In this document: positions 39,733 to 45,081 of the stretch, piece after piece
Position numbering within the stretch: the first letter of the stretch is position 1
How the letters are laid out: every line of letters begins with the position of its first letter
Virus record (IMG/VR): IMGVR_UViG_3300036770_003135
Location: 38,793 to 102,792 of that record
Length of the DNA: 64,000 nt
From: a virus
Reading direction: 5' to 3' (one strand)
Position numbers and translations under genes: made by a program
The notes under the pieces: generated by a model
The model's database searches: none
What the model was told of the DNA's origin: nothing
The model's input: the letters and a program-made list of their open reading frames with translations, nothing else

Positions 39733-40176
39733 TTAAAAAGTTGTACCTGTGTAAGGTCCGTTAACACAACAAGGGAAATCTGACACATAACAAGAATTAT
39801 ATTCCAAATCATCAGCAATAAATGATTCTTGGACATTTATATATAATTTTTCTCTAATGGGTAATATCAAAACACCATCATTACTTCTTAACATAAATTG
39901 TCCTTCGTATCTACCAACTCTATTTGTATCTCTATTTTGGAATTGATAATATAGATAATATTCCTTTTCAGCATTTGGGTCAACATTTGTCTTCTCAACA
40001 AATCCTGCAGGTCTTGAAACAATCTTCTCAACACCAGTTTCTGTATCAACCATAGAAAAAAATAAAGCAGATTGTTCTATCAAACTCATAAAGTTGTTGT
40101 AGTCCAATCTACCATTCTTAACCACTTGTAATTTAAGAAGAGGTAACGTTGCGTTCTTCTTTATAAAAAATTCCAT
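39733..40176 (-). CDS. Conserved-looking virion surface protein, unknown
   Basis: A 147-residue beta-rich protein starting MEFFIKKNATLPLLKLQVVK and containing FFSMVDTETG, YYLYYQF, VGRYEGQFML and LILPIREKLYINVQESF. This is the layout of N-terminal attachment domains of baseplate or fibre proteins, which begin with a strand from a polymer-like 'KKNATLP' segment. It ends with a Cys-rich tail (CYVSDFPCCVNG). I cannot name the family. A TATTTAT motif precedes it. Confidence 0.65.
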   Translation of the reverse strand: MEFFIKKNATLPLLKLQVVKNGRLDYNNFMSLIEQSALFFSMVDTETGVEKIVSRPAGFVEKTNVDPNAEKEYYLYYQFQNRDTNRVGRYEGQFMLRSNDGVLILPIREKLYINVQESFIADDLEYNSCYVSDFPCCVNGPYTGTTF

Positions 40177-40769: not shown

Positions 40770-40772
40770 ATA

Positions 40773-40806
40773 TAAAAAAATGTCCTCAATATAAATATGA
40801 GGACAT
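40773..40806 (-). terminator. Rho-independent terminator of the noncoding RNA
   Basis: A 9-bp perfect stem (ATGTCCTCA / TGAGGACAT) with a 9-nt loop, followed on the minus strand by T7. No minus-strand gene ends upstream of it, so it must end a noncoding transcript. Confidence 0.8.
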
Positions 40807-40962
40807 TAATTATAAGTTTTTTGAACCCCTCACAAGGCGGGTGGTTATCTTACAACCAATCTGGTATATACTCAACCAGCACCTGTTGACACTTATGGTA
40901 GTCCATCCTAATGATGTTTATACACCCCTAACTTTTATTGGTAAGTCATCAACCATTTATTG
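40775..40962 (-). ncRNA. Candidate phage noncoding RNA, about 185 nt
   Basis: The minus strand carries a consensus Bacteroidota promoter (40968-40998), then about 150 nt without a convincing gene, then a strong terminator (40773-40806). The block is clearly less A/T-rich than the flanks and rich in short self-complementary segments: ATGG-ACTA-CCAT, CTGGT-N9-ACCAG, TGGTT-GTAAGAT-AACCA and CCC...GGGG followed by GTTCAA. The last two loops look partly tRNA-like, but acceptor and T-stems do not form. An 18-codon frame MDYHKCQQVLVEYIPDWL (ATG at about 40905) is also present and could be a small peptide. The function is unknown. Confidence 0.6.
40791..40797 (-). promoter_or_regulatory. TATTTAT motif inside a terminator loop
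   Basis: TATTTAT on the minus strand, 21 nt before the ATG at 40769, located in the loop of the hairpin at 40780-40806. Confidence 0.4.
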
Positions 40963-40967
40963 TCCTA

Positions 40968-40998
40968 CAAAGATAGTAGTTCTTTATAAATATTCAAA
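40968..40998 (-). promoter_or_regulatory. Consensus Bacteroidota promoter for the noncoding RNA
   Basis: On the minus strand TTTG (40998-40995), exactly 19 nt, then TATCTTTG (40975-40968). This matches the published Bacteroidota consensus TTTG-N19-TAnnTTTG at every defined base. It predicts a transcript start near 40962. Confidence 0.7.
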
Positions 40999-41150: not shown

Positions 41151-42674
41151 ATGAAAAACATTTTACTAATTCTTATTTTTCTTCCTTCTTTCATTTGGTC
41201 TCAGACTTATCTTCATGGTACAACGGGGATTCAAGGTGAACGTGTAACTCATTGTTTGGTTTCTACTTGTGGTGGAACTTACCTTGACAATGGTGGTTCA
41301 GCAGGTAATTATTCCAATAATATTACTGGTGGACTTTATCGTGTATTTTGTCCATCTACTGTTGGAAGTTGTGTTAGAGCAAGATTTACATCATTTAGAA
41401 CTGAATCTGGTTTTGACTATTTGACCATTGGTAATGGTGCAACACAAAACTCACCCGTATTTACCACAGTCCCAGCTACAGTACCTAATGGTAGAATATC
41501 AGGTGCTCCTGTAGTTCCATTCACTTTCACAGCAAACAACCCAAGTGGTTGTTTAACCTTTAGATTCACCTCGGATGGAAGTATCAATGACATTGGTTGG
41601 AGTGCAACATTATCTTGTGTACCTTGTGCAACGGCTGGTAATGGACCTAATTTAACTGATAATAACGATTGTTCAAGAGCGACCAACATTTGCTCTGACA
41701 TTACATTCAATGCAAATGCAAGAGGTCCTGGTCTTGTAGCTGAAGGATGTACTGGAGCTTCTTGTCCAGCTGGTGGAGAAAATCATTCTAATTGGTATAG
41801 GTTTACTGTACTAACTAGTGGAACACTTACATTTACAATCGACCCACAAACAAACACCGATGACTATGACTTTTCAATATGGGGTCCTAACACAACTTGT
41901 GGAACACTTGGCACTCCAATTAGATGTACTGATTCAGGAAATACTGGAAATACTGGACTTAACACAACTGCGGTCGATAATATTGAAAGTGTTACTGGTG
42001 ATGGTTTCCTATCTCAAATGAATGTCTTAGCTGGTGAAACCTATATTATGGTAGTTGATGAATGGTTATCTAACACTGGTAATGGTTATCAATTATTGTT
42101 TGGTGGAACAGCTAGATTGGATTGTGGATTACTACCAATAGAATTATTATATTTTGGTGCTGAATATCAAAATGAATCAAAGGAAGCTTTAATAACTTGG
42201 GGTGCTAACTCGGATTATGAATCAGAGTTCTTCGTAGTTGAAAAGTCTTTAGATGGTGTAGAATTTGATTCAATTGGAATAACTAGTGCTGGTGGTACTG
42301 GAAGATTTGATTATTCATTTGTTGACCCCAATCCAGAATATAACGGATTCACTTATTATAGATTAAGATGGGAACAACAAGATGTTCAAACTTACTCGGA
42401 TGTAACCGCAATTGCAGTAGATGACCCAACAAATAAAATTATTGTTCAACCAAACCCTTTTAATGATTTTATAAATGTGAAAAGTTTTGGTGATTACTAC
42501 GGAAATTGTCAAGTATCAATTTATGATATGACAGGACAAAAGAAATTGGAACAAACATTACAATTTGGAATCTCCAATAAATTAGAAATAGATACGAAGA
42601 GTTTAACAACTGGATTTTATACCGTGATAATACAAACTGAACAATATACAAAATCGTTTAAGGTAACAAAATAA
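41151..42674 (+). CDS. Secreted CUB-domain protein with T9SS type A sorting domain
   Basis: A 507-residue secreted protein. Residues 1-17 form a signal peptide (MKNILLILIFLPSFIWS, cut before Gln18). Residues about 35-160 form a CUB-like domain with paired Cys (RTESGFDYLTIGNG, FRFTSDGSINDIGWSATLSC). About 165-325 is a second beta domain like bacterial pre-peptidase C-terminal folds (NWYRFTVLTSGTLTFTIDP, then DDYDFSIWGP). About 330-420 is a fibronectin-like linker (ALITWGANSDYESEFFVVEK). Residues about 425-507 are a type A T9SS sorting tail (IIVQPNPFNDFINVKS, VSIYDMTGQ, LTTGFYTVIIQT, SFKVTK). It should be exported by the host T9SS and fixed to or released from the cell surface. It looks of host origin. 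Confidence 0.9.
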   Translation: MKNILLILIFLPSFIWSQTYLHGTTGIQGERVTHCLVSTCGGTYLDNGGSAGNYSNNITGGLYRVFCPSTVGSCVRARFTSFRTESGFDYLTIGNGATQNSPVFTTVPATVPNGRISGAPVVPFTFTANNPSGCLTFRFTSDGSINDIGWSATLSCVPCATAGNGPNLTDNNDCSRATNICSDITFNANARGPGLVAEGCTGASCPAGGENHSNWYRFTVLTSGTLTFTIDPQTNTDDYDFSIWGPNTTCGTLGTPIRCTDSGNTGNTGLNTTAVDNIESVTGDGFLSQMNVLAGETYIMVVDEWLSNTGNGYQLLFGGTARLDCGLLPIELLYFGAEYQNESKEALITWGANSDYESEFFVVEKSLDGVEFDSIGITSAGGTGRFDYSFVDPNPEYNGFTYYRLRWEQQDVQTYSDVTAIAVDDPTNKIIVQPNPFNDFINVKSFGDYYGNCQVSIYDMTGQKKLEQTLQFGISNKLEIDTKSLTTGFYTVIIQTEQYTKSFKVTK

Positions 42675-42698
42675 AAGGATGAGAAATCACCCTTTTTT
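42673..42698. terminator. Bidirectional terminator between cargo and glycosylation genes
   Basis: A stem AAAAGG-a-TGA / TCA-c-CCTTTT with one mismatch and a GAAA loop, followed by T6 on the plus strand and by A-run complement on the other. It lies between convergent stop codons. Confidence 0.7.
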
Positions 42699-45081
42699 AA
42701 TTTTCTTTTCTAAGTTTGCCATCGTAATGGTCAAATCTATTATGTTCTGTTGGTGTAAGTAATAATAATCCTGGTTTAATATTATCTTTAATTGTTTCTT
42801 GATAACAATAACTCATCAAAGTTTGTTCAAAAGGATGTGTCCATCTTGTTTCCAAATAACATTTATAATTCCCCTCCTTATTCATTATTATCGGCCAATT
42901 ACACAAATATATTTCCCCACTTATATATGGAATACCCTTATGAATTTTAATGTGCTTGAACTCCGTTTTTGGTGAGTTGGGGTCTAATCCCATCTGTGGA
43001 AGTTTTGGATTATTAGGCCAATGTTTCTGTCTGAAATCTTGTGGGACATTATACCAAGCCCATTGTGTATTATTATCACCATAAAATTCTGTGAAGTTCA
43101 ATTTGAGGAAATCAAAGTTTTCTTTTTGAATAATCTCCAAACTTTTCCTATATAAATTTTTAACATATCTATTGAATCCATTTTTACAAGTTTCATTCTT
43201 TGGATAGAAGAACATATCATCTTCTAGAAAAAAATACAAGTCTAAGTTGGTATCATTAAAGTGTTCAGCTATAAAAATTCGACCACCCATTATACCAAGG
43301 TTATCTTTTTTAATATGTTCAAATCCATATTGTTCACATAACTCTTTATACCTTGGTGTTGTGGCTAAATCTGTTGAATTATCTAAAAGAAATTTCTTTG
43401 GTTTAGTTATAAAGTCTGAATCATACTCCAACATTGATTGGATTAATGTCTCAAATTGTTTTGGTGAATTAAATGTAATTACATATAATCCCACCTTATC
43501 TATTGATGTATTGTTTTGAACTTGTAAGAATTTTTTTTCTTTCTTGGGTTGTAATCTATTTTCCTTAATATCCTCAAAAAATTTACCCATCAATCCATTT
43601 GGTTCAATATCAAAATAAGTTATTAGATTTGGATAAAGATAAACCATCAAACTGAATATACTTTCTTCAGTTCCCATATATCCCCTATTCAATGTATCTG
43701 ATAACAATTGATAATATATTGAGTTTATTTCAGTTATCACTTCTTTTTTACCACCAAAGAATCCACCTCTTGCAACTTTATTAACTTTTGAATTGGTTAT
43801 TCTATTCATCTCAGAAATAGTGAATCCGTGTATTTCTGTGGTTGTTTCATAAGGGAAACAAACAAAATTAAAATCACCAATATGTTTTGGTAATTTATCC
43901 AATACTTTATCGTGGGTGAAATAACCTGGATGGATTGTATTTGTTAAACCAGCATCAATCCAAAACATATACTCTGAATTGAATTTATCCAAAAGTTTTG
44001 CATCGTGTAGTAAAAACACTTTTGACATAACCAATGGATTATACATTTCAAGTTTTGCTTGGGTTGAATCTTTTAACCAACCAACTTGATTATACCATTC
44101 AGGTTTTTGTCTGATTTCTTGTATCTTTGGATAAAATTCATTATTGGTGAACCAATCCAAGTTTCTTAGAATGAATTGGGTATTGTTATTATTTCTTCTA
44201 TCATTAACGAATTGTTGTAATTCACTATCACCAAAAATAATTAAATTACAATCAACTTCTAATAATTGGGAGAATTTATCCAAGTAGTGTTGATAAGACC
44301 TTGACCAACCCTCTTGAAGTTTATCTCTTCCTATATTCCATAATCCTGTTACTAATGTTATTTTACTATCAAGTGTCTTGTTGTTTGTTTTATTGGGTAT
44401 TTCTTGTTTTGATAAAATATCATAAAACTCTTTTGGAATCGCAACAATATCTTGAGAATTTATTTCATATATGTAATTGTTTTTATTGAATATTTCTTTG
44501 ATGTTGTTTTTTTCATCATCTAATAAATTAATCCACTCAAGTCTAATAACTTTTGGTTTATATTTAGATAAATCAATTTGTTTGAAAATGATATAATCAT
44601 GTCCTTCAGCATCTACCTTAACAATATCAAAATTAGTTAAATTATGCTTTTCAACAAGTGAATCAAAAGTTATACAATTTACATTTACTTTCTCCCCATA
44701 TTTCTCAACTGTTGGTCGGTCAAATTCACTTCCTAAACCATTTTTTGGTGGGTAAACAGCACTCATACCATAAAAACAGTTATGTACCAAACCATTATCA
44801 ATTACTTCCTTGTTAATAGTTATCATTTCTATTTGACCATTGTAATCTGATATTGCAGAATTTTCAAACATAGATTTGTTTGATGTAATATTTTTTTTAA
44901 GTTTGTCAAATAAGTAAGGAATAGGTTCAACATATAAAACTTTATATCCATACATATTAGTATAACCAATCATTTCATCAAATAAAACCCCATCCATTGC
45001 ACCTATGTTCAATGCAACCACCTCGGTTTGATTCTTACCCAAGTAATGTAATGATTTATCAAAAAAATTGTCTATAATCAT
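42697..45081 (-). CDS. Three-domain fusion: FkbM methyltransferase, YibB-like and GT2-like glycosyltransferases
   Basis: A 794-residue modular enzyme. Residues about 1-215 are an FkbM-type SAM methyltransferase, which O-methylates sugars (NIGAMDGVLFDEMI, YVEPIPYLFDKLKKN, VKVDAEGHDYIIF). Residues about 240-500 resemble HtrL/YibB-type glycosyltransferases (ITLVTGLWNIGRDKLQEGWS, FWIDAGLTN, GGFFGGKKEVI). Residues about 520-794 are a GT2/GT-A-like domain (VGLYVITFNSPKQFETLIQS, then FFLEDDMFFYP with a DxD-like metal motif). It is last in a coupled operon: its ATG overlaps the previous stop by 4 nt. A bidirectional terminator follows. Confidence 0.8.
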   Translation of the reverse strand: MIIDNFFDKSLHYLGKNQTEVVALNIGAMDGVLFDEMIGYTNMYGYKVLYVEPIPYLFDKLKKNITSNKSMFENSAISDYNGQIEMITINKEVIDNGLVHNCFYGMSAVYPPKNGLGSEFDRPTVEKYGEKVNVNCITFDSLVEKHNLTNFDIVKVDAEGHDYIIFKQIDLSKYKPKVIRLEWINLLDDEKNNIKEIFNKNNYIYEINSQDIVAIPKEFYDILSKQEIPNKTNNKTLDSKITLVTGLWNIGRDKLQEGWSRSYQHYLDKFSQLLEVDCNLIIFGDSELQQFVNDRRNNNNTQFILRNLDWFTNNEFYPKIQEIRQKPEWYNQVGWLKDSTQAKLEMYNPLVMSKVFLLHDAKLLDKFNSEYMFWIDAGLTNTIHPGYFTHDKVLDKLPKHIGDFNFVCFPYETTTEIHGFTISEMNRITNSKVNKVARGGFFGGKKEVITEINSIYYQLLSDTLNRGYMGTEESIFSLMVYLYPNLITYFDIEPNGLMGKFFEDIKENRLQPKKEKKFLQVQNNTSIDKVGLYVITFNSPKQFETLIQSMLEYDSDFITKPKKFLLDNSTDLATTPRYKELCEQYGFEHIKKDNLGIMGGRIFIAEHFNDTNLDLYFFLEDDMFFYPKNETCKNGFNRYVKNLYRKSLEIIQKENFDFLKLNFTEFYGDNNTQWAWYNVPQDFRQKHWPNNPKLPQMGLDPNSPKTEFKHIKIHKGIPYISGEIYLCNWPIIMNKEGNYKCYLETRWTHPFEQTLMSYCYQETIKDNIKPGLLLLTPTEHNRFDHYDGKLRKEN

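Follow-up and report, generated by a model that had tools for sequence, protein, structure and literature searches.

A putative type IX secretion cargo gene with a conserved head and a divergent sorting tail, shared by diverged myoviruses

A myovirus represented by a 102,792-bp IMG/VR virus record carries an intact gene for a 507-residue protein that ends in a type A sorting domain of the type IX secretion system (T9SS). At a probability of about one half, we read its product as an accessory cargo that would be exported through the T9SS of the host, which is assumed to have one, and would alter the surface of the infected cell, most plausibly protecting it from competing phages. Positions given below are those of the window, the whole 64,000-nt stretch of the record that was analysed.

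Phage-carried, T9SS-tagged cargo is as an idea already published: in 2020, type A cargo was described in Cryophage, with superinfection exclusion as the suggested role, and was termed a unique occurrence by its authors (PMC7468147). T9SS sorting-domain proteins on gut phage contigs had been noted in 2019 (PMC6949934), and a search of one literature collection for phage-borne T9SS cargo returned no account besides these two. Cryophage has in common with the phage described here type A T9SS sorting domains in Bacteroidetes phage genes that lie in variable regions; compared by description, its 76-kb genome encodes an endoglucanase, a GH39 protein and a PA14 protein as cargo (PMC7468147), whereas the 102.8-kb myovirus record encodes a seemingly non-enzymatic, CUB-like cargo with a conserved head and a varying tail. 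The gut phages of the 2019 study likewise have sorting-domain proteins on phage contigs, but differ in their BACON domains, their gut origin and a tag function that is unsettled there (PMC6949934). To these accounts the present analysis adds a cargo that seems to be non-enzymatic and whose head is conserved; it also adds the host family of this cargo, its spread among diverged phages and the recurrence of such cargo.

Domain architecture of the cargo protein

The gene coincides exactly with the reading frame singled out in an earlier note on this DNA, and its N-terminus, MKNILLILIFLPSFIWSQ, reads as the signal peptide proposed there; the N-terminal layout is the same in phage and host homologues (Table 1). 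The type A sorting tail that the earlier note had recognised by eye is borne out by two libraries, in both of which the final 74 residues exceed curated cut-offs: Por_Secre_tail (PF18962) matches residues 434-502 with an E value of 1.2e-10 and 42 bits (cut-off 27), and TIGR04183 (T9SS type A) scores 36.7 bits (cut-off 23). The best matches of the cargo family profile are the solved C-terminal domains 8glk and 8glj.

The two beta domains named in the same note stand in part. Pfam CUB (PF00431) does not match the window protein itself, but weak matches occur in 4 of 8 alignment members (best E 0.0033) and a weak plasmid match lies in a gene that carries the annotation CUB-domain protein; "CUB-like" is a reasonable, not a proven, label for residues 18-160. 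The second beta domain is weakly matched by GBD_T9SS_assoc (PF23759) in the homologues of two related contigs, G002 and G009. In Foldseek searches its model retrieved the collagen-binding jelly rolls of ColG/ColH and the K3 cleaved adhesin domain of Kgp, a possible fold likeness with no sequence likeness shown, and the whole model retrieved FN3-type matches; since the AlphaFold2 model was built with 4-5 sequences and has a mean pLDDT of 50, these fold matches are no more than weak leads. The cargo protein matched no catalytic family, and its CUB-like and jelly-roll domains have the look of binding modules without enzymatic activity.

Table 1. Features of the cargo gene, its surroundings and related loci (window coordinates unless a locus is named)
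Feature	Coordinates	Strand	Remarks
Conserved phage module, left edge of cargo slot	39733..40176	-	Kept in relatives
Small phage gene flanking cargo, 172 aa	40251..40769	-	Close relatives carry MRNLIRKIL-type genes here instead
Noncoding element, ~190 nt, single-copy, divergent to cargo gene	40770..40959	-	Conserved, covarying in five relatives
Copies of noncoding element	L008 4400-4590, L010 8344-8540, L014 2469-2660, L018 6385-6580, L098 4330-4515	-	
Bacteroidota-type promoter TTTG-N19-TATCTTTG of noncoding element	40968..40998	-	Among 6 window sites
T9SS-type cargo gene	41151..42674	+	507 aa, ATG start, intact ORF
Sec signal peptide, residues 1-17 (MKNILLILIFLPSFIWS, then Q)	41151..41201	+	Without lipobox Cys; read from sequence
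CUB-like domain, residues 18-160	41202..41630	+	Weak PF00431 matches in alignment members
Second beta domain, residues 164-325, jelly-roll/galactose-binding-like	41640..42125	+	Weak PF23759 match in homologues; low-confidence model
Ig/FN3-like domain, residues 326-425	42126..42425	+	Beta strands in model, pLDDT mostly 62-76
Type A T9SS C-terminal sorting domain, residues 434-507 (QPNPFND...SFKVTK)	42450..42671	+	PF18962, TIGR04183
Terminator-like hairpin between convergent cargo and FkbM/YibB genes	42673..42696		10-pair stem, T tail on - strand
FkbM methyltransferase fused to YibB-like protein, right edge of cargo slot	42697..45081	-	Flanking phage gene
Small phage proteins with (L/I)xE-containing starts, examples	L099 5590-6174, L010 8528-9106, L014 2603-3238; L146-L155		Relatives and G446

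Phage linkage and spread between phages

Phage genes within the window include a B-family DNA polymerase, a head-tail adaptor, a helicase and a tail sheath, and by reading the rest of the record holds baseplate-like and RNR-like (ribonucleotide reductase) genes; judged from the genes that were read (polymerase, RNR and tail genes, with no integrase noticed among them), the phage looks virulent. A polymerase scan gathered 80 related loci. Two of these contigs, from different metagenomes (G002, locus L008; G009, locus L098), carry a cargo homologue with 66% identity at the same site, between an FkbM/YibB-type flank that is 94% and 85% identical to that of the window and a left-hand module that is 92.5% and 94.5% identical, respectively. 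The cargo gene is absent from the corresponding site in four other relatives (L010, L014, L018 and L054). Chimaerism is thereby practically excluded and the site is an accessory slot, whose gene varies among related phages both by presence or absence and by divergent alleles. The presence in related phages that the earlier note had proposed to look for thus extends to three other phage contigs, the two just named and a distant myovirus, and host DNA joined in assembly, which would have undone the claim of a phage-borne gene, is excluded in practice by independent contigs with the same gene order.

At the right edge of the slot, the YibB part alone (~557 aa) is matched in most relatives examined, and the FkbM-YibB fusion may be limited to a few phages. 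The hairpin between the convergent genes has a minimum free energy of -7 kcal/mol on the + strand, with a z score of only -1.26.

A scan of viral contigs with the cargo protein as single query found no homologue; the fourth copy was recovered by a profile/alignment query of IMG/VR. It lies in G446, a 184.5-kb myovirus record, and is 57% identical to the window protein overall and 79% in the CUB-like domain. The sheath (41%), polymerase (36%) and adaptor (40%) of the two phages are far less alike, and their core proteins are mostly 22-47% identical; by these proteins, G446 is a myovirus of the deep lineage to which the window phage also belongs. The cargo gene of G446 lies in a different, non-syntenic neighbourhood, and its product is more conserved between the two phages than most core genes, which together point to transfer between phages. 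Around this copy, a paralogue family with the start MDxxKLNEIMKKRLNEGFFG is expanded (L146, L148, L149 and L155), with leucine-rich repeats in those members that were read.

No consensus Bacteroidota promoter was found for the cargo gene, while the window holds 6 Bacteroidota-type promoter sites (1.19 expected), one of which precedes a noncoding element. This element is present with or without the cargo gene and has a terminator hairpin, and its promoter is found in the window and most relatives. In five relatives, 96.7% of cells are paired in its structure, which includes an H-type pseudoknot (slid controls, at most 51%), and 10 pairs are changed on both sides, the structure having been drawn from the same five sequences on which it was scored; the window copy is divergent from those of the relatives. 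An Rfam search with the element gave no match above a gathering score, and a search of the phage collection gave none either.

Host family, selection and the divergent tail

Chromosomal-type homologues with this layout were found in 35 of 399 genomes (E<=1e-60), the sample being drawn from the order to which a Flavobacteriales MAG belongs; the best of them are 43-51% identical to the cargo protein over its full length, and one is adjoined by ordinary chromosomal genes. This Flavobacteriales family (L104, L108, L109, L110 and others; ~515 aa, up to 51% identity) shares the domain layout of the phage proteins but is host-encoded. The four phage copies group in a single clade (100/99) next to the host sequences when the N-terminal half is analysed by maximum likelihood. 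The best explanation is that phages acquired the gene long ago from Flavobacteriales hosts, where it belongs to a family of exported binding proteins; the nearest host homologues are those of the Flavobacteriales.

Purifying selection is evident in the phage copies, with dN/dS of 0.07 between G002 and G009 and of 0.11-0.14 between the window (G000) and G002 in the two N-terminal domains. GC3 of the cargo gene is 0.181, against a phage mean of 0.163 and 0.225-0.379 in six host homologues. Given the low dN/dS and the phage-like GC3, the gene has probably persisted under selection in phages over a long period, and its high overall GC (rank 43 of 45 in the window) is probably due to amino-acid composition.

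Conservation is uneven along the protein. Phage-phage pairs share 61-84% identity in the head, with the CUB-like domain the most conserved part (79-84%), and 20-30% in the tail, excepting the near-identical pair G002/G009; phage-host pairs share 57% and 20%, respectively. Host-host pairs, in contrast, keep the tail (42.5% mean identity) along with N-terminal domains at ~60%. The tails of G002 and G009 score 17 bits, below the Pfam cut-off, and are without the PNP motif, yet are conserved between each other. Recognition of type A tails depends on their fold more than on their sequence (PMC12618676), so that these two may still function; for G002 and G009, however, they are where the export claim is weakest.

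Tail swapping was considered and rejected as an established reading. The C-terminal half of the window protein matches other host T9SS tails better (E 9e-22) than the tails of its own family (1.6e-16), a modest gap, and the tail dN/dS near 1 fits exchange or fast evolution alike, the two being inseparable by this measure because synonymous sites are judged near saturation in this AT-rich DNA.

Possible roles of the cargo

On the preferred reading, Sec would carry the cargo protein across the inner membrane, PorV/SprA of the host T9SS would then capture its type A tail, and once the tail is removed the protein would stay anchored on the cell or be released around it, both outcomes being known for type A tails (PMC12618676). 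Through its CUB-like and jelly-roll modules it would most likely alter what adheres to the infected-cell surface and, most plausibly, protect the infected cell from competing phages by masking receptors. A role in superinfection exclusion is plausible by analogy with Flavobacterium columnare, in which gld/spr mutations lead to phage resistance (PMC9233685), so that T9SS-dependent surface features matter for infection there. An exclusion protein shaped by an arms race would not be expected to pair a conserved head with a divergent tail; the conserved head would suit a constant target, and both adhesion and receptor masking are compatible with one. If the protein is exported, phages could rebuild the surface of infected Bacteroidota by the host's own secretion route, and whether T9SS cargo is used by phages against rival phages becomes testable. 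The four phage copies provide a ready set for comparison, with conserved heads and divergent tails.

The same modules could instead serve the infected cell itself, which might lyse slowly or be in a carrier state, by adhesion, aggregation or attachment, with the phage gaining through host survival or access to neighbours. Proteins secreted by hosts typically have such binding modules, conservation of the head suggests a target that does not change, and a member of the host family lies on a chromosome among ordinary genes; a phage that looks virulent would, however, leave little time for such a benefit, and this alternative is rather unlikely. A fibre-like or decoration protein of the virion, with host domains retained by chance, would be in keeping with the beta-sandwich domains common on virions and with the presence of fibre-like genes within several kb, but the signal peptide and sorting tail would remove the protein from the cytoplasm, where particles assemble, and the gene occupies a separate strand and slot and is missing in close relatives, all of which makes a virion role improbable.

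Distinctly improbable, too, is a decoy role, in which the protein would occupy the T9SS and host adhesins or receptors would be displaced, even though the export route is shared. SprB has a type B tail, served by a shuttle of its own, SprF, and for this reason the competition with motility adhesins suggested in the earlier note is less likely, and competition with SprB unlikely; RemA, however, has a type A tail. The shuttle for type A tails is PorV, which is apparently not limiting and copes even with overproduced type A cargo (PMC12618676). The phage resistance of F. columnare with mutated T9SS genes would agree with a decoy (PMC9233685), for which, however, a conserved binding half would be unnecessary. 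Neutral or recently captured host DNA without function in the phage would account for the patchy presence of the gene and is very improbable in view of purifying selection, phage-like GC3 and the monophyly of the four phage copies. An assembly chimaera of phage and host contigs, to which the high overall GC of the gene might point, has next to no probability and is rejected on the repeated gene order in independent contigs, the unoccupied sites in relatives and, again, GC3.

Recurrence of T9SS-type cargo in large phages

The relatives of the window phage are mostly without T9SS tails. One of them, the 203-kb G013, encodes a 1855-aa PKD-domain protein (L100 7925-13492) with a signal peptide and a T9SS tail of 38.7 bits; this gene sits in another slot, near genes that read as FKBP-like and thymidylate-synthase-like. 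G446 has two further tail-like matches, one of them above the cut-off, and the huge phage LR745206 has a strong match (48.7 bits). An IMG/VR scan for DNA encoding the motif YPNPTNG returned 73 contigs; in 34 of them a home-made profile places a tail-like domain at the end of an ORF, a count that rests on this one motif variant. Terminase or tail-sheath matches are present in 6 of these 34 contigs (G452, G458, G459, G462, G465 and G476; 146-306 kb), which by eye represent four unrelated cargo families.

These scans suggest that T9SS-type cargo recurs in large phages and that the Cryophage case is not unique, turning an anecdote into a pattern. Export through the host T9SS may tentatively be viewed as a general strategy of large Bacteroidota phages, with the gene described here as a phage-borne, surface-binding lineage that has moved between deeply diverged myoviruses, its binding half kept and its tail exchanged or re-tuned; we hold this wider proposal to be somewhat short of an even chance.

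Unrelated signal-peptide families with T9SS-like tails recur among the IMG/VR contigs (L178/L190/L200/L216; L187/L212/L230; L183/L218/L229; L166/L179/L182/L224), and several of the contigs concerned are 200-300-kb phages.

Other features of the phages

A 906-aa phage protein (32617-35337, + strand) opens with a complete Fe/Mn superoxide dismutase domain at residues 27-216 (Sod_Fe_N, 70 bits; Sod_Fe_C, 137 bits), and homologues of this protein are present in all 80 relatives from the polymerase scan. Many small phage proteins start with MRxLIRKILxEE or with sequences like MKIIITESQYxxLLE, which contain (L/I)xE (Table 1); such starts recall the capsid-targeting leaders of T4 internal proteins that are cut by the prohead protease.
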